Assembly (NCBI GenBank): GCA_902789555.1
Contig: CADAOF010000014.1
Span: 1 to 57,996 of the forward strand
Direction of reading: 5' to 3'
From: an uncultured Lachnospiraceae bacterium
Lineage (GTDB): Bacteria; Bacillota; Clostridia; Lachnospirales; Lachnospiraceae
DNA length: 57,996 bases
The notes under the pieces are model-generated. The model was not told where the DNA came from. It saw nothing but the letters and a program-made list of their open reading frames with translations, and searched no databases. Positions 6,346-34,503 of this stretch are shown here, one piece after another. Each line of letters opens with the position of its first letter. Positions within the stretch are counted from its first letter, which is position 1. Position numbers and translations under genes: made by a program.

Positions 6346-7188
6346 ATGTGGGAACTGGGAAAAACGACGCGGCTCACCGTCGATCATTTCACCGATAACG
6401 GCGCGTATCTGCGGCATGGGGACGATCTTTCGGAAAAGCCGGAGACCGTGCTGCTGCCGAACCGCTACATTCCCGAAGGAACGAAGACGGGCGACGTGCT
6501 TGAGGTCTTTCTGTACCGGGATTCCGAGGACCGTCCGATCGCGACGACGGATAAGCCCCTCATCGAAGCCGGAGGCTTCGCGCAGCTGAAAGTAAAGGCG
6601 GTCACTAAGATCGGCGCCTTCCTGGACTGGGGCCTGCCGAAGGATCTGTTCCTGCCCTATAAGGAGCAGCGCGGCGAGCTCGCGGCCGGGCAGAGTGTTT
6701 TCGTGACGCTTTACGTGGACAAGTCGGACCGGCTCTGCGCGAGCATGCACGCGGACCGCTTTTTCCGGAACGACCCGCCCTATGAGGAGGGCGACCGGGT
6801 GAAGGGGACCGTCTACGCCGTGAATCCGGAGATCGGCGCCTTCGTGGCGGTGGACGGGCTGTACTACGGCCTCATCCCGAAGCAGGAACTGTATGAAAAA
6901 CTGCGCGTCGGGGACGCTGTGGAGGCACGCGTCCTGAAAAAGCGGCCGGACGGCAAACTGAACCTGTCCCCCCGAAAAAAGGCCTATGCCCAGATGAAGA
7001 CCGATGCCGAGATCGTGATGGAGCATCTGGAAATGGCCGGCGGCATCCTGGGACTCGGCGACAAGAGCGACGCCGTGCTCATCAAGGCGGAGCTTTCCAT
7101 GAGCAAGAGCGCCTTCAAGCGTGCCGCGGGCGGCCTTCTGAAGGCCGGAAGGATCCGCGTGTACGATGACCGGATCGAGAAGGTCTGA
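6346..7188 (+). CDS. cvfB: CvfB/YitL-type S1-domain RNA-binding protein
   Basis: 280 residues, the typical CvfB length. It has consecutive S1-like domains (about 1-60, 68-130 with KIGAFLDWG, and 143-205 with EIGAFVAVDG) followed by a C-terminal winged-helix part (about 215-280, SMSKSAFKRAAGGLLKAGRI). CvfB binds RNA and affects virulence gene expression in Staphylococcus aureus; the general role is in RNA metabolism. RBS AAAGGAG lies 8 bp upstream. It may be read through from the tRNA-Gln promoter, because no separate promoter is obvious. Confidence 0.88.
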   Translation: MWELGKTTRLTVDHFTDNGAYLRHGDDLSEKPETVLLPNRYIPEGTKTGDVLEVFLYRDSEDRPIATTDKPLIEAGGFAQLKVKAVTKIGAFLDWGLPKDLFLPYKEQRGELAAGQSVFVTLYVDKSDRLCASMHADRFFRNDPPYEEGDRVKGTVYAVNPEIGAFVAVDGLYYGLIPKQELYEKLRVGDAVEARVLKKRPDGKLNLSPRKKAYAQMKTDAEIVMEHLEMAGGILGLGDKSDAVLIKAELSMSKSAFKRAAGGLLKAGRIRVYDDRIEKV

Positions 7189-29879: not shown

Positions 29880-30443
29880 ATGAAACGTGAACTGAAACCC
29901 GGCAACATGCTTTATCCGCTGCCGGCGGTGCTGGTTTCCTGCGGCGACGGAAAGGGCGTGCAGAACCTCCTTACTGTCGCCTGGGCCGGCACCGTCTGCT
30001 CGGACCCGCCCATGCTGAGCGTCAGCATCCGCAAGGACCGTTATTCGCATCAACTGATCGAAGAGAGCGGCGAGTTCGTGGTGAACCTCGTCTCGGCGGC
30101 GATCACGAAGGCCACCGATTACTGCGGCGTCCGCTCCGGCCGTGACGGCGATAAATGGAAGGCTTCGGGCCTTACCCCGGCGCAAGCGCCGAGCCTGGAG
30201 AAGGCGCCGGCTGTCGCCGAAAGCCCGGTCTGGATCGAATGCAAGGTCGACCGCATCCTGGAACTCGGTTCGCACGACATGTTCCTGGCGAAGGTCGTGG
30301 GCGTGCACGCCGACGAAGCCCTGTTTGAGGAAAACGGCAGACTGGATCTCGCGAAGGCGGACCTCATGGCCTACTCCCACGGCGAATACTTCCGCCTGGG
30401 AGAAAAAATCGGCACATTTGGCTGGTCGGTGAAGAGGAAATAG
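29880..30443 (+). CDS. Flavin reductase family protein (FMN-binding split barrel)
   Basis: 187 residues. NLLTVAWAGTVCSDPPMLSVSIRKDRYSH and ESGEFVVNL are the FMN-binding split-barrel hallmarks. The C-terminus is GEKIGTFGWSVKRK. The reaction partner is unknown; such proteins reduce flavins or act as small flavoprotein oxidoreductases. There is no spacer to kbl, so translation is likely coupled. A collapsed second copy of this gene, with similar downstream sequence, lies at 33734-33840. Confidence 0.87.
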   Translation: MKRELKPGNMLYPLPAVLVSCGDGKGVQNLLTVAWAGTVCSDPPMLSVSIRKDRYSHQLIEESGEFVVNLVSAAITKATDYCGVRSGRDGDKWKASGLTPAQAPSLEKAPAVAESPVWIECKVDRILELGSHDMFLAKVVGVHADEALFEENGRLDLAKADLMAYSHGEYFRLGEKIGTFGWSVKRK

Positions 30444-30513
30444 AAAAACAGGTGACAAAAGAAAAAAGTATTGAAGAAAGCGGCAGATGGAAGCGTGAAC
30501 GTCTGTCGTTTTC
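30399..30513 (+). repeat. Left direct-repeat copy (flavin reductase end plus terminator)
   Basis: The sequence encoding GEKIGTFGWSVKRK, then AACAGGTGACAAAAGAAA and AAGCGGCAGATGGAAGCGTGA, recurs with substitutions at 33796-33915. Confidence 0.8.
30480..30513 (+). terminator. Terminator of the tdh-kbl-flavin reductase unit
   Basis: GCGGCAGAT pairs, with G-U pairs, with GTCTGTCGT around AAGCGTGA, followed by TTTTCT. It is weaker than its GC-richer counterpart at 33880. Confidence 0.6.
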
Positions 30514-30658
30514 TAATGCCATAGATGTTAAGAAAATTAAGTATAATGCATATTTTTCTTTGCATTCTAAAGTTCTTTGCTTTATTCAAAACAGTTTATT
30601 TATTGGAAAGCGCTTCCTGCTAAACACAAAAACAATGAAGACAATCAGGTAAAATACG

Positions 30659-31219
30659 ATGAGACTCACTCCATTAATCCCATTAAATGATGAAGAAAGG
30701 GAATTATTAGAGAAAGTATATTTTAAGTATCGTAGCGCAATGTTCGCTGTTGCATTTTCCTGCCTTCATAATGATGCGGATGCAGAGGATATTGTCCATC
30801 AGGTGTTTCTGAAATTGGCACAGAAATATATATCAACAGTGAGAAAACTCCAAAGAGAAGAAACGTTACCCTATTATTTAATGACAATGACACGTAATGA
30901 GGCTTTAAGCCATCTGAGAAAGGCCAGTGTCAGGAAAGAGTCTATTGTTGATCCAATGGAATTGCCTGAAGCGAGCACAGCCAATGATCCTGTTTTAGAT
31001 GATATATGTGAATCCTTAGATACTTCTGAAATCGCTCAAGCAATAAATAGGATGGATGATATATATCGAAATGTTTTGTATCAGAGGTTTATCATGAATC
31101 TAACAATAAAGGAAATTGCTGATATTAACCACCTACCGATATCGACAGTAAAAGGTCGGCTGCAGCGCGCGAAGTGTTTGCTGTGGAGTTTAAGTAAGGA
31201 GAAAAATGATAATGAATGA
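30659..31219 (+). CDS. ECF-type sigma-70 factor
   Basis: 186 residues. Region 2 (about 20-92) includes DADAEDIVHQVFLKL and YLMTMTRNEALSHLRK. Region 4 (about 128-180) has LYQRFIMNLTIKEIADINHLPISTVKGRLQRAK, a helix-turn-helix. There is no region 1 or 3, as in ECF factors. It would direct RNA polymerase to a small set of promoters, probably including its own locus. Codon use is AT-rich (many ATA, TTA, AAA), unlike neighbours. The next gene, a membrane protein, overlaps by 14 bp, the usual sigma/anti-sigma arrangement. Upstream RBS is weak (CAGGT). Confidence 0.88.
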   Translation: MRLTPLIPLNDEERELLEKVYFKYRSAMFAVAFSCLHNDADAEDIVHQVFLKLAQKYISTVRKLQREETLPYYLMTMTRNEALSHLRKASVRKESIVDPMELPEASTANDPVLDDICESLDTSEIAQAINRMDDIYRNVLYQRFIMNLTIKEIADINHLPISTVKGRLQRAKCLLWSLSKEKNDNE

Positions 31220-31994
31220 CGAAATGATTAAAAGCGCTTTGAAAGAATCCATGATTCAGGAATATGCTGCTTTTCTTGACACAGAGGAACATGAGTTTTC
31301 CTCAAACTTTGAGAAAAAAATGTCGAGGATGTTTCGAAAAAGAAAAAGCACATGGTCTTTTGGCAGTGCTGGAGGAAAACGTCTGGGTATAGGAGCTATA
31401 TGCTTAATGCTACTGCTTACAGGCTCGTTTTTTCTGATGACAGAAGCAGGGAAAGAGTTTAGCTTGACATTTAAAAACCATTTGGAAGAGATGTTGGGAG
31501 TTCCATTGAATCAGCGTCATGCGGTCAAGGCAAACAATCGTATCATGAACTCCTTTGAGACTGATGAGAATGGTGTACAGATTTATCCGGATGATTTTGC
31601 AGGAACATATATTGACGGTGAACAGTTAATACTGTGTCTGAAAAAAGGAACCGGACCAGCTGTAGTGAACAAATATCTGGATATTACAGGTGCTGAAGCA
31701 AAGTATGTATCAATTAAAGAAGTAGACTATTCGCAGAACGAACTGCAGATTATTGCAGATTTACTGGCAGAAGAGTTAAGTGGGCAAGGCGTTACGATCT
31801 ATTCGTATGGAGTGGATGTCCCGAATAACGGCATTAGTTTTACGACAATGAAAGATAACGCAGAACAGATAAAAAACTTATCTCAGAAAGCATGTTCAAA
31901 TATCATTTGCAGTGTCGAAGTTAAAGAATCGCCGTCGTTGATGACAGATTATTATTTCGGCGAGACGCAACAATCAGTTCCCAATCATGATTAA
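31206..31994 (+). CDS. Probable membrane anti-sigma factor with extracytoplasmic domain
   Basis: 262 residues. A cytoplasmic N-terminus of about 60 residues (SNFEKKMSRMFRKRK) leads to one membrane helix (about 61-78), then an extracytoplasmic domain (80-262). The outer domain has IYPDDFAGTYIDGEQL, and its later part (YGVDVPNNGISFTTMKD) resembles, from memory, pro-domain or inhibitor-like segments seen in some clostridial secreted proteases; this is unverified. Role as anti-sigma is inferred from topology and the overlap with the sigma gene. RBS AAGGAG favours the ATG at 31206 (31212 possible). AT-rich codon use is shared with the sigma gene. Confidence 0.7.
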   Translation: MIMNDEMIKSALKESMIQEYAAFLDTEEHEFSSNFEKKMSRMFRKRKSTWSFGSAGGKRLGIGAICLMLLLTGSFFLMTEAGKEFSLTFKNHLEEMLGVPLNQRHAVKANNRIMNSFETDENGVQIYPDDFAGTYIDGEQLILCLKKGTGPAVVNKYLDITGAEAKYVSIKEVDYSQNELQIIADLLAEELSGQGVTIYSYGVDVPNNGISFTTMKDNAEQIKNLSQKACSNIICSVEVKESPSLMTDYYFGETQQSVPNHD

Positions 31995-32020
31995 TCTTCG
32001 ATGTCATTTTACCATTGAGG

Positions 32021-32043
32021 CTCAGCTCAATTGTGCTGCTGAG
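32021..32043. repeat. Inverted repeat in the gap before the cysteine protease gene
   Basis: CTCAGC and GCTGAG flank TCAATTGTGCT in the 198-bp gap. An A run rather than a T run follows, so it is not a + strand terminator. It may be an operator or mRNA structure for the protease gene. Confidence 0.4.
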
Positions 32044-32192
32044 TGAGAAAAAAATGTTTGTTCGAAGAAGGCTTTCTAAATCATGGTGCAATGCATGTCG
32101 CTAATAAAAGTTTTATAAGCGGATGCGGAGAATATCAAAAAACAAAGAAAGAGAGGTATGGAAGGAATGATTTGTTTCGAGGAGGATTACGG

Positions 32193-32768
32193 ATGAAAAA
32201 GGTCTGTGAACGAATGATGGTATTGATGCTGCTTCTATGCATGATAAGCGTAAGTGCATCCGCATATACGCCAATACCCAGCACATGTACTGGCTATACG
32301 TTCTACTCAACCGTTGAGCCGCAGGCACAGACAAAGTGGTGTTGGGTGGCCAGTGCATTGAACAGCGCAAAGAAAGAATATGCATCTGTCACAAAACAAC
32401 AGGGAAATGCAGTTTACATGATCAAGGGCGGATTAGTAAACGAGTACGGAACTGCGGCAGAAACAAGAACTGCAGCTAACTATTTTACGGATTATACAAA
32501 AAGCTTCTCTGTCTCGGGTGTGCTGTCATATAACTACATTTGCACATCGGTATATAATCAACATCCTATCATTCTTGGGGCTTCAAACGGGGTATCTGGC
32601 CACATGGTCATGATTCATGGATGGGGAATAAGTGAAACTAATCAGCAATTGGTTTTCTATTATGATCCATGGCCCACCATCGGATACCAATATTGCACCT
32701 ACGCTCAGTTGCTATCCGGGTCACAATTAGGTTATCCGTATGTTCAAAGCGTCCACATTCCGTACTAA
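32193..32768 (+). CDS. Small secreted papain-like cysteine protease (C39/C70 type)
   Basis: 191 residues. Signal peptide about 1-24 (hydrophobic VLMLLLCMISV, then SASA). The mature protein is about 167 residues with the papain-like order Gln-Cys-His-Asp: Q44 or Q46 in EPQAQTK, C50 in WCWVAS, H137 in GHMVMIHGW, D158 in YYDPW. WCWVAS is the signature of C39-like and AvrRpt2-type (C70) proteases. There is no long pro-region in the mature part, so control may come from a partner. GAGGAGG sets the ATG at 32193. It lies 198 bp after the anti-sigma gene and 11 bp before a secreted membrane-anchored gene. Substrate is unknown; an antagonistic or host-directed toxin is possible but not shown. Confidence 0.82.
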   Translation: MKKVCERMMVLMLLLCMISVSASAYTPIPSTCTGYTFYSTVEPQAQTKWCWVASALNSAKKEYASVTKQQGNAVYMIKGGLVNEYGTAAETRTAANYFTDYTKSFSVSGVLSYNYICTSVYNQHPIILGASNGVSGHMVMIHGWGISETNQQLVFYYDPWPTIGYQYCTYAQLLSGSQLGYPYVQSVHIPY

Positions 32769-32779
32769 GGAGGATTGAT

Positions 32780-33706
32780 ATGAAAAAAATGCTATTTGCA
32801 ATACTTGTTTGTGTCTTTGGCTTTTTCTCTTTCGTGCCGTCGGCCGGGGCGGAGGGCGGCCACGCAGACCGTGCCATCGAAAACGCGCTGGAACAGGTGA
32901 GGCAGATCGCGCCTGACCTGGAAAAGAGTACGAATGACTTCTTCGGCGACGCGAAGGATGCCTTGCCGGAAATGATGAAGCCGTCGGCGGCAGATTATGA
33001 CGGCGCTTTCAAGGTGATTCGGAAAAACGGCTATTTTGTGGAGACTTACCGGAAAAACGGCAGCTTCTCTTTTCTGCAGGACGCGGATGGGGAATACTGG
33101 CTGGTTCCTCTTTCTTACGGGGGAGAGAAACCGGCGGGCGACATCAGATTTATGGAGGAAAACGGCAAGCTGACCTTTGCCGGCGGCGGGCGCTTAACGG
33201 ATCCGGAATACTTTCCGTTTACTTACGAGCGTTTGTCGGAAAGCGTGAACCGGTCGGAACTGATCCGGAACGAGATCGACGAATTTCAGGTGGTGGAGAA
33301 CCTGCAATACAGGGTCTTTTATGCATATCTTCGCAGCGGCACGGAAGAATTCATTATCCCTCTGGATTCGCTCCTCTCGGAGGCCGGACTGATCAAGGAT
33401 ACCGTTTATGCGGCGGATGAATTCATCAGGAAGATAGATGAGTATTATGATGAAGAAACCGATGCGCAGAAGCGGCAGGAAGCCGCTGCCAAGGGGGAAT
33501 ACCTCTATGGCGGAGGCGTTCTTACCCGAGCGGAGACCCGCAGACTGAAAAAGGCTGCGGTGGCTCCGGAGGTCATTCTGCCTGCAGAGGCGAAGGCAAA
33601 CAGCCGTAACTTCATGCTCTGGATCATCGCCGCCCTGGCTGCTGCAGCGGCAGGATGCACGGTGCTGATCACAAGGAAGAGAACGAAACGTGATCCGCAG
33701 GGATAA
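32780..33706 (+). CDS. Secreted C-terminally anchored protein of unknown function
   Basis: 308 residues. Signal peptide 1-24 (FAILVCVFGFFSFVPSAGA). The extracytoplasmic region of about 250 residues has the run DADGEYWLVPLSYGG and EEFIIPLDSLL. A C-terminal helix (about 278-297) is followed by basic TRKRTKRDPQ, so the bulk faces outside. AAGGAGG overlaps the protease stop, implying one operon. Base composition changes inside the signal peptide: the first 15 or so codons are AT-rich like the protease, the rest has host-like GC-rich codons. Function unknown; an inhibitor, receptor or substrate of the protease would fit the position. Confidence 0.75.
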   Translation: MKKMLFAILVCVFGFFSFVPSAGAEGGHADRAIENALEQVRQIAPDLEKSTNDFFGDAKDALPEMMKPSAADYDGAFKVIRKNGYFVETYRKNGSFSFLQDADGEYWLVPLSYGGEKPAGDIRFMEENGKLTFAGGGRLTDPEYFPFTYERLSESVNRSELIRNEIDEFQVVENLQYRVFYAYLRSGTEEFIIPLDSLLSEAGLIKDTVYAADEFIRKIDEYYDEETDAQKRQEAAAKGEYLYGGGVLTRAETRRLKKAAVAPEVILPAEAKANSRNFMLWIIAALAAAAAGCTVLITRKRTKRDPQG

Positions 33707-33733: not shown

Positions 33734-33840
33734 ATGAAGCGGACACCGGCAACAGGCGAGCATCTGACATCGCCTGGGCCGGAACGGTCAATTCAGGCGA
33801 AAGAATCGGAACCTTCGGCTGGTCGGTAAGGAAGAAATAA
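33734..33840 (+). pseudogene. Collapsed copy of the flavin reductase gene
   Basis: ATGAAGCGG...CCGGCAACA corresponds to the start of the gene at 29880; a segment reading AWAGTV follows, then after a jump GERIGTFGWSVRKK and TAA. In the intact protein these pieces are about 135 codons apart (AWAGTV near codon 35, GEKIGTFGWSV at 174). The remnant shows that a second flavin reductase copy once stood here and lost its middle. Confidence 0.8.
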
Positions 33841-33915
33841 AACATCCAGCGCAACAAAAGAAACAAAGTGTTGCAGAAAGCGGCAGATGGAAGCGTGACC
33901 ACCTGCCGCCTCTTT
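33796..33915 (+). repeat. Right direct-repeat copy
   Basis: Counterpart of 30399-30513: encodes GERIGTFGWSVRKK and a stop, then CAACAAAAGAAACAAAGTG and AAGCGGCAGATGGAAGCGTGA. The match extends beyond the coding end into the terminator. Confidence 0.8.
33880..33915 (+). terminator. Terminator following the flavin reductase remnant
   Basis: GCGGCAGATGG and CCACCTGCCGC form an 11-bp stem with one mismatch, then CTCTTT. It ends the protease operon transcript. Confidence 0.65.
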
Positions 33916-33952: not shown

Positions 33953-33981
33953 TTGACACAGGGGTATAATTATAATATAAT
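33953..33981 (+). promoter_or_regulatory. Strong promoter of brnTA
   Basis: Consensus TTGACA (33953-33958), 17 bp, TATAAT (33976-33981). The toxin start is 27 bp downstream with CGGAGGATCT as RBS. Confidence 0.9.
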
Positions 33982-33983
33982 TA
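33967..33983. promoter_or_regulatory. Palindromic operator over the brnTA -10 box
   Basis: TAATTATA-A-TATAATTA is a perfect palindrome with 8-bp arms around one base and covers the -10 hexamer. BrnA antitoxins are ribbon-helix-helix repressors of their own operon, so this is the likely BrnA site. Confidence 0.7.
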
Positions 33984-34007
33984 CTTTACATTGATCACGG
34001 AGGATCT

Positions 34008-34292
34008 ATGGTTTCGTTCGAGTGGGACGAGAGGAAGAACAGGACAAACATCCGCAAACACGGCATTGCTTTTGAAGAGGCAGCGACGGTCTTCTTTGAC
34101 GGGAATGCGATCCTGTTTGACGATCCGGAGCATTCCGGCCAGGAGGAACGGTTTCTGCTGCTTGGCATGAGCGCGGAAGCAAACGTGATGATCGTCTGCC
34201 ACTGCATCCGGCAGTCGGATACGGTCATCCGCATCATTTCTGCGAGAAGAGCGACGGAGAAAGAGGAACAGCGATATGCAGAAGGAATATGA
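34008..34292 (+). CDS. brnT: BrnT-family ribonuclease toxin
   Basis: 94 residues, usual length. FEWDERKNRTNIRKHGIAFEEAATVF is the BrnT opening; DDPEHSGQEERFLLLG and IRIISARRATEKEEQRY complete the RelE-like fold with its conserved His, Arg and Glu. BrnT cleaves RNA and stops translation until neutralised by BrnA. The 3' end overlaps brnA by 17 bp, the standard toxin-first BrnTA order. Confidence 0.92.
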   Translation: MVSFEWDERKNRTNIRKHGIAFEEAATVFFDGNAILFDDPEHSGQEERFLLLGMSAEANVMIVCHCIRQSDTVIRIISARRATEKEEQRYAEGI

Positions 34293-34503
34293 AATTGACA
34301 AATTAAATCCGCGCCCGAACCCGTACGCGAAAGAACTGAAAAAACAGGTAACGATCAAAATGTCTCCCGCGGTGATCGATTATTTCAAGCAGGAGTCCGT
34401 TGCCTGCGGCATTCCCTATCAGACGCTGATCAACCTGTATCTGGTCGACTGTGTCAGAGAAAAGAAAAAACTGACCATGACGTGGGGACCTAAAGAAGGT
34501 TAA
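34276..34503 (+). CDS. brnA: BrnA-family antitoxin
   Basis: 75 residues. RPNPYAKELKKQVTIKMSPAVIDYFKQESVACGIPYQTLINLYLVD is the ribbon-helix-helix region: a beta strand (QVTIKMS) and two helices that dimerise and bind DNA. BrnA neutralises BrnT and represses the operon. It is short (many BrnA have 80-100 residues) but has the full domain. The RBS lies within brnT. Confidence 0.88.
   Translation: MQKEYEIDKLNPRPNPYAKELKKQVTIKMSPAVIDYFKQESVACGIPYQTLINLYLVDCVREKKKLTMTWGPKEG

Follow-up and report, generated by a model that had tools for sequence, protein, structure and literature searches.

The stretch of DNA analysed here, referred to as the window, comprises the 57,996 nucleotides (nt) of contig CADAOF010000014.1 from an uncultured Lachnospiraceae bacterium (GenBank assembly GCA_902789555.1). 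Between positions 30659 and 33706 it contains genes for an extracytoplasmic function (ECF) sigma factor, a putative anti-sigma factor, a secreted protease predicted to be papain-like, and a membrane-anchored protein, hereafter called the partner (Table 1). An initial annotation of this DNA had proposed four same-strand genes, and all four are present as plus-strand open reading frames where it placed them. The partner gene starts 11 nt after the stop codon of the protease gene, and 198 nt lie between the anti-sigma and protease genes. The sigma, anti-sigma, and protease genes have G+C contents of 37 to 44% in surrounding DNA of about 60%, and their G+C values at third codon positions (GC3) are 0.34, 0.38, and 0.45, respectively, compared with 0.79 to 0.84 in the three neighbouring genes measured. 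In the DNA that encodes the mature partner, the G+C content is 55% and GC3 is 0.66.

Table 1. Positions of the genes, domains, and other features of the locus within the window
Feature	Position	Strand	Evidence or remark
ECF sigma factor, 186 amino acids (aa)	30659..31219	+	Pfam and TIGR02937 matches above cut-off
Putative anti-sigma factor, 262 aa, one membrane helix	31206..31994	+	14-nt overlap with sigma gene; N-terminal similarity
Membrane helix of putative anti-sigma factor, residues ~60-78	31383..31439	+	Direct sequence reading
Outer domain of putative anti-sigma factor, residues 107-241	31524..31928	+	blastp, neighbour reading, alignment, profile comparison
Secreted C39/C70-like cysteine protease (predicted), 191 aa	32193..32768	+	Alignments, Pfam scans, PDB profile matches
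Protease catalytic codons C50; H137; D158	32340-32342; 32601-32603; 32664-32666	+	
Membrane-anchored partner, 308 aa: signal peptide, ectodomain, C-terminal helix	32780..33706	+	Leave-out hidden Markov model (HMM); identity to L218
Partner signal-peptide part	32780..32845	+	Recombination junction near 32840-32846, from identity to L218
GGG in partner juxtamembrane linker, residues 244-246	33509..33517	+	
Partner C-terminal membrane helix, from residue 280	33617..33682	+	Hydropathy
Imperfect direct repeat, copy 1: 3' end of flavin reductase gene and beyond	30399..30508	+	Families D1 72%, D2 83%
Imperfect direct repeat, copy 2, past partner gene	33796..33908	+	
cre-like box upstream of sigma gene, one mismatch	30604..30618	+	Such matches no commoner in the window than expected by chance

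The protease possesses a signal peptide, recognized by eye, and the putative catalytic residues C50, H137, and D158. The corresponding Cys, His, and Asp are invariant in all 19 aligned proteases (the window protein included), as are W49, W51, and P159 among other residues, and Q44 is conserved in at least 90% of them. At 13.1 bits, the window protein falls below the cut-off of 19 for Peptidase_C70 (PF12385; E 0.09), and it has no match to Peptidase_C39_2 (PF13529) at E ≤ 1. At E ≤ 0.01, 16 of the 19 aligned proteases match PF12385, the window protein not among them, and 15 match PF13529. With a Cys-His-Asp triad and a Gln ahead of the Cys, the window protein is identified by sequence as a papain-like cysteine protease, in agreement with the C39/C70-type assignment made initially, and a check for catalytically dead relatives found the catalytic residues intact in all aligned relatives. 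The catalytic Cys is located at residues 41 to 59 in 18 of the 21 proteases measured (window included), which indicates that the protease has no pro-region, and the initial annotation had likewise noted the lack of a long one; the remaining three have extra N-terminal repeats, choline-binding or similar, ahead of the catalytic domain. The protease profile partially matched a CdiA chain (E 6e-5), AvrRpt2 (E 0.002), and 1y4h/1pxv (E 0.008) in the PDB, the last of which we take to be staphopain.

Protease matches were found in 6 of 299 genomes of the family with the protein as query (1e-3), in 20 of 397 with a profile query (1e-5), and in 8 of 391 genomes of the class (E ≤ 1e-12), the window's own genome being counted each time. 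Relatives occur in Candidatus Scybalocola faecipullorum (locus L024 of genome G126, which NCBI places in the Lachnospiraceae, Clostridia, the family of the window genome), Criibacterium bergeronii, Butyribacter intestini, Clostridium frigidicarnis, and a metagenome-assembled Ruminococcus genome. Most of the 80 loci kept from a wider protease scan are actinobacterial, and a scan of genome contigs with the window protease alone confirmed no relative. Spread by phages or plasmids was considered and rejected: no phage match was obtained, plasmids carried only distant C39/C70 proteins (1 and 5 records), viral contigs contained two distant matches, and further scans gave none. At L072 (4479-5222, genome G097), a C39/C70-like domain forms the C-terminal part of an apparent RHS-type protein cut by the contig end, a layout that corresponds to a polymorphic-toxin arrangement.

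In 24 of the 32 protease loci examined for their neighbours, the window included, the protease gene is directly followed on its own strand by a partner gene, recognized by position and topology. Two of these loci, L077 and L078, share one genome; L083, L086, and L087 are uncounted repeats of L024, L025, and L071, and the count also omits nine further family matches, other actinobacterial loci, L163, and L164. The eight loci without a downstream partner are L072, L073, L074, L079 (contig end), L100 (gene unresolved), L139, L201, and L232, the last of which has a shortened partner gene with stops upstream of the protease gene. Genes were resolved in 4 of 14 actinobacterial loci, none with a partner by eye, and the inclusion of these four gives 24 of 36. 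The recurrence of the pair supports a functional link between the protease and its anchored neighbour, as had been supposed from the window alone, and the core of the locus is a two-gene protease/partner module, not the sigma link. Measured in 18 pairs, the distance between the two genes ranges from -11 to 48 nt, and the divergence of the protease is correlated with that of the partner over 20 pairs (r 0.80, 0 of 5000 permutations). The pair at L077 and L078 is a duplication on one contig of genome G491, the copies lying 14.6 kb apart beside agr-type quorum genes and having identical protease genes. Small secreted proteins without a Pfam or NCBIfam family are encoded around the pair at L024 (2220-2591 and 4169-4753), L068, L075, L084, and L085, and the one that follows the partner is conserved by eye in these five loci.

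The window partner has a signal peptide assigned by eye and a C-terminal helix assigned by hydropathy, and it belongs to a divergent family, being 13 to 25% identical to the other members. Leave-one-out HMMs were applied to the ectodomain alone, stripped of signal peptide and helix, of 23 partners (L078, which duplicates L077, was omitted), and 19 of these were detected at E < 0.01; the window ectodomain reached E 7.2e-13 with the HMM built from the other partners. The four failures were L081, L082, L151, and the contig-cut L230, and the first three reach E 3e-8, 0.0014, and 0.0043, respectively, as full-length proteins. By this sequence measure the partner family is real. At E ≤ 0.1, none of the Pfam families matches more than one of 19 partners, and the commonest NCBIfam match, ExtJ, was obtained for 4 of 19 with a best E of 0.001; in the one member for which its position was displayed, it falls on the signal peptide. 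The family is not recognized by the sequence models of Pfam or NCBIfam. A structural model of a relative's partner has a mean pLDDT of 73, with most of the ectodomain at 77 to 91.

At the same locus in a sister species (L218, genome G307), the flavin reductase gene is directly followed by the partner gene, with no sigma, anti-sigma, or protease gene, and G307 contains no protease match at E ≤ 1e-5. The window partner shares 93.5% nucleotide identity with L218 over 975 nt. In 60-nt blocks, identity is 63% in the first block and 88 to 100% in later blocks, and this jump places a junction at the end of the signal-peptide part, which shares the low G+C content of the protease gene. The same locus in the same genus contains neither partner nor protease at L217, L219, L220, and L221, whose genomes yielded nothing with either profile at E ≤ 1e-5, and L222 matches in the reductase and tRNA only. 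The GC3 values of protease and partner are at most 0.08 apart in 16 of 18 pairs, the exceptions being the window (0.19) and L070 (0.23); the latter is a second mosaic-looking pair, with GC3 values of 0.34 for the protease and 0.57 for the partner. The simplest reading of these sequences is that an AT-rich cassette arrived and recombined with a partner gene already resident there, and the AT-rich block of sigma, anti-sigma, and protease genes is probably foreign; a deletion in the sister is a possible alternative to the arrival of a cassette. Since the partner stands alone at the same locus in the sister species, it cannot be regarded simply as a component of a four-gene system.

Partners without an adjacent protease are not restricted to the sister species. 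The partner profile matched 15 of 299 genomes of the family (own genome included), six with the pair and nine without an adjacent protease. None of these nine genomes is among the 20 protease-positive genomes from the draw of 397, which likely contained all nine, and a scan of 15 lone-partner loci with a protease HMM gave no match at E ≤ 1e-3. Within the same genus, G310 encodes a protease and a contig-cut partner, and G303 encodes a clearly similar partner with no clear C-terminal helix and has no protease match. At L189 (2494-4635, genome G134), two partner genes are arranged in tandem without a protease, and both linkers contain the motif GGVPL.

The sigma protein matches sigma-70 region 2 (PF04542, E 7e-9), region 4_2 (PF08281, E 2e-9), and TIGR02937 (71.2 bits against a cut-off of 42.9), all above the cut-offs, which bears out its first designation as an ECF sigma factor, and a paralogue elsewhere in the same genome (L021) is 48% identical to it. 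The putative anti-sigma factor contains a single hydrophobic helix by eye (residues ~60-78) and matches no Pfam or NCBIfam model at E ≤ 1, hence no known Pfam anti-sigma domain. Its N-terminal part resembles proteins in L021, L033, L034, and L024, each adjoining a sigma gene, and those of L021 and L024 bear DUF4367 outer domains. The window protein thus shares gene arrangement and N-terminal similarity with the DUF4367 proteins beside ECF sigma genes of Lachnospiraceae, but it has no DUF4367 and carries a possibly prodomain-like outer domain in its place. Upstream of the paralogous sigma operons at L021 (6834, 6922), L033 (5994), and L034 (6297) lies GTCTCCTTTT, followed 9 to 10 nt later by TCTTGTTT, with the exception of the L021 copy at 6922, which is without the second box. 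The GTCTCCTTTT/TCTTGTTT element is a candidate promoter of the paralogous ECF group; no exact copy of GTCTCCTTTT is present in the window.

Residues 107-241 of the putative anti-sigma factor form an outer domain that recurs in two M56/BlaR1-type receptors of the window's own genome (L018 and L019), in another anti-sigma-like protein (L030), and N-terminal to a trypsin-like domain (L020). The receptor genes (L018:404-3532 on contig C31 and L019:5753-8320 on contig C11) each have a gene for a BlaI-like repressor, recognized by eye, just upstream. In the trypsin-like protein (L020:4845-6011, own-genome contig C5), the shared domain occupies the usual position of a prodomain; the trypsin-like domain scores slightly under its Pfam cut-off, and its His, Asp, and Ser motifs are apparently intact by eye. 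With hhalign, the outer-domain profile aligned over 109 columns with the prodomains of actinobacterial alpha-lytic proteases. Six full-length prodomains gave a score of 29.5 (E 5.6e-4, probability 30%), compared with at most 14.7 in 60 column shuffles and 9.8 to 12.2 for reversed and three unrelated profiles; the score was only 10.9 with all 10 prodomain rows, that is, before four bad rows were removed. The prodomain model PF02983 matched 1 of 11 outer-domain members at E 0.016, no better than the unrelated DUF4899 (0.0074), and had no match in the own genome at E ≤ 0.01. A relationship between the outer domain and the alpha-lytic protease prodomain is therefore a good lead, not proof, and the putative anti-sigma factor is possibly a protease sensor. 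The idea that the partner might be homologous to this outer domain was considered and dropped (hhalign probability 0.1%). Genes for matrixin-like metalloproteases (HExxHxxG by eye) adjoin a sigma/anti-sigma pair or a papain-like protease at L030 (4853-5131), L069 (3531-4076), and L081 (130-702).

The plant-pathogen effector AvrRpt2, a member of Peptidase_C70, has the same catalytic order as the window protease and represents the family whose model, PF12385, most of the aligned proteins match, but the window protein is under the C70 cut-off and has a Sec-type signal peptide. Another known system is Cpe1/Cpi1, in which a papain-like protease toxin, a relative of ComA and LahT with a Cys-His-Asp triad, usually has its immunity gene downstream (PMC12136450); the window shares with it a papain-like protease and a downstream neighbour gene, in addition to the partial match of the protease profile to a CdiA chain. 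However, the proteases surveyed in that report are tied to type VI secretion systems (T6SS) or contact-dependent inhibition (CDI), with putative immunity proteins of 79 to 239 aa (PMC12136450), whereas the window protease has a Sec-type signal peptide and the partner is predicted to be membrane-anchored outside and shows no detectable resemblance to any solved protein. No T6SS or CDI carrier was recognized by eye among the neighbours read in paired loci. An inhibitor-like gene also adjoins the cysteine protease gene in SpeB/Spi, staphopain/staphostatin, and Bacteroides fragilis Bfp/Bfi; in B. fragilis, large insertions carry two of the four genes, and the inhibitors are thought to protect the producer (PMC2873492). 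These proteases belong to families C10 and C47, whereas the window protease is C39/C70-like, and the Bfi proteins are small (116 to 138 aa) and staphostatin-like (PMC2873492), whereas the window partner is unlike staphostatins by sequence; the excerpted text of the same source mentions no ECF sigma link for any of the three systems. RsiV, the anti-sigma factor of the ECF factor sigma V, directly binds the enzyme lysozyme on the outside of the cell, after which proteolysis in two steps destroys it (PMC9044953), and this combination of ECF sigma and membrane anti-sigma factor is a precedent for an enzyme-sensing anti-sigma factor, but the outer domain in the window resembles a serine-protease prodomain. 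In the excerpts available for Cpe1/Cpi1, SpeB/Spi, staphopain/staphostatin, and Bfp/Bfi, neither an anchored partner of this kind nor a prodomain-like anti-sigma factor is described. Among the literature matches listed (titles and abstract starts, with few subscription journals covered), there is no description of the full combination.

The reading that we favour, tentatively and at a little less than even confidence, is that the partner is a membrane-tethered inhibitor or immunity protein of an unguarded secreted protease and is kept as lone immunity in relatives. The papain-like (C39/C70-type) protease would be secreted without a pro-region to silence it, and the partner, held by its one C-terminal helix, would bind the cognate protease with its outer domain and shield the producer's own surface. 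Relatives without the protease would retain the partner as protection from a neighbour's enzyme. The AT-rich sigma/anti-sigma/protease block has been joined to a partner gene of other composition, and the protease would probably be switched on when the anti-sigma outer domain meets a ligand, perhaps a protease, after which the putative anti-sigma factor would be destroyed by intramembrane proteolysis. A Gly-Gly (GG) ahead of the membrane helix would be recognized by the active site of the protease. Twenty paired partners possess a genuine C-terminal helix (the paired L025 and the lone L233 have none and are omitted from the GG counts), and GG occurs within the 60 residues ahead of that helix in 15 of them, compared with 5.0 carriers expected from shuffled linkers (21 paired partners counted), and the rest of the paired ectodomains contains 0.15 GG per 60 residues. 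Cpe1 cuts GyrB and ParE at GG, and ComA and LahT also cut at GG (PMC12136450), so by analogy the partner GG may be cut by the protease or may form an inhibitory loop that mimics a substrate.

Several observations weigh against this reading. The partner profile matched no known inhibitor in the PDB (staphostatin, Spi, or other solved families; best E 0.08), a Foldseek search with the relative's partner model found nothing at E ≤ 0.001 (best 0.18), and the window partner's own model is poor (pLDDT 53). GG is missing from 5 of the 20 paired partners and is present ahead of the helix in 6 of 14 lone partners (3.5 expected), a difference without statistical significance (Fisher p 0.08). Elsewhere in the lone ectodomains there are 0.37 GG per 60 residues, above the paired value. 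The co-divergence of protease and partner decreases to r 0.31 (6 of 5000 permutations) without three close relatives, and lone partners would fit equally well a surface protein of older function that was later cut by the protease. On the side of regulation, the second gene is a putative anti-sigma factor on the basis of its position and overlap, its one helix, and its N-terminal similarity. An ECF gene was found in the flanks of only 5 of the 24 paired loci, namely, the window, L024, L025 (opposite strand), L068, and L069, as well as close to one lone partner, L233, out of 15, by means of an HMM from eight sigma factors that included those five, a scan that other ECF types could escape and for which some flanks were short. 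A two-box comparison established no promoter motif shared upstream of the sigma and protease (32193) genes, giving 18 matches compared with 0 to 14 in six shuffled controls, and the matches shown were A-rich.

Sigma control as a defining feature was dropped on these ECF counts. The order of sigma, anti-sigma-like, protease, and partner genes on one strand recurs with intervening genes in L024, and in L068 and L069, where the protease genes are damaged, so the four-gene order proposed in the initial annotation does exist in other genomes, but it is confined to a small part of the pairs. Genes of the agr quorum type, by eye, are located near L077, L078, and the partner-less L074, and some other pairs have no recognized regulator, so sigma control looks like an add-on. 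This scarcity of ECF genes, the unusual GC3 gap of the window pair, the 198 nt ahead of the protease gene, and the failure to establish a shared promoter motif all favour an alternative in which recombination is the main reason why the sigma/anti-sigma/protease trio adjoins the partner here, the sigma factor acts on other genes, and protease and partner form an ordinary surface protease locus with a promoter of its own; set against the same gene order in L024, L068, and L069, this alternative is rather unlikely, though it is the strongest of those considered. Two other candidates for regulation were rejected. The window contains 13 matches to the cre (CcpA) box at one mismatch or fewer, compared with 20.75 expected, and thus provides no evidence for it; a site ahead of the sister's partner fits the cre consensus exactly. 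A structured RNA leader before the protease gene was not supported (z -0.30).

The main rival concerning the partner itself holds that it is a substrate, the protease cutting at the juxtamembrane Gly-Gly and shedding the ectodomain as the true effector or signal. The enrichment of GG ahead of the helix in paired partners, the cleavage at GG by Cpe1, ComA, and LahT (PMC12136450), and the adjacency of the two genes in three-quarters of the loci would all be expected from it, but GG is also carried by lone partners and missing from some paired ones, GG-rich linkers ahead of membrane helices may merely be flexible, and several genomes keep the partner without an adjacent protease, so that we consider the shedding of a substrate unlikely, slightly more so than the alternative of neighbours by recombination. 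Least probable is a partner acting as an activator, folding helper, or surface tether that replaces the absent pro-region: although most of the proteases have no pro-region, the partner gene follows closely behind, and the three relatives with choline-binding or similar repeats indicate that surface attachment is used in the family, the four resolved actinobacterial C70 loci have no partner by eye, and lone partners would be purposeless.

Beyond the locus genes, the window contains a BrnT/BrnA toxin-antitoxin pair (33953-34503) between repeat copy 2 and a tRNA gene, with a perfect TTGACA-17-TATAAT match directly upstream; the pair is missing at the same locus of L218. tRNAs were the only known RNA families found in the window at the gathering threshold.

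A wider and quite doubtful proposal, less probable than the shedding of a substrate, concerns the outer domain. The fold resembling a serine-protease prodomain would be an exchangeable decoy sensor, carried by anti-sigma, BlaR1-type M56, and trypsin-like proteins, that detects extracellular proteases and releases the cell's own papain-like protease, and kin and neighbours would carry a new family of membrane-tethered immunity proteins against it, with or without the enzyme.

A secreted protease paired with an anchored partner emerges from the analysis as a module found in many Clostridia, and sister species that differ in the protease block at this locus constitute a natural experiment. If the outer domain is a decoy prodomain, the signal for a set of orphan receptors would become guessable, i.e., proteases.

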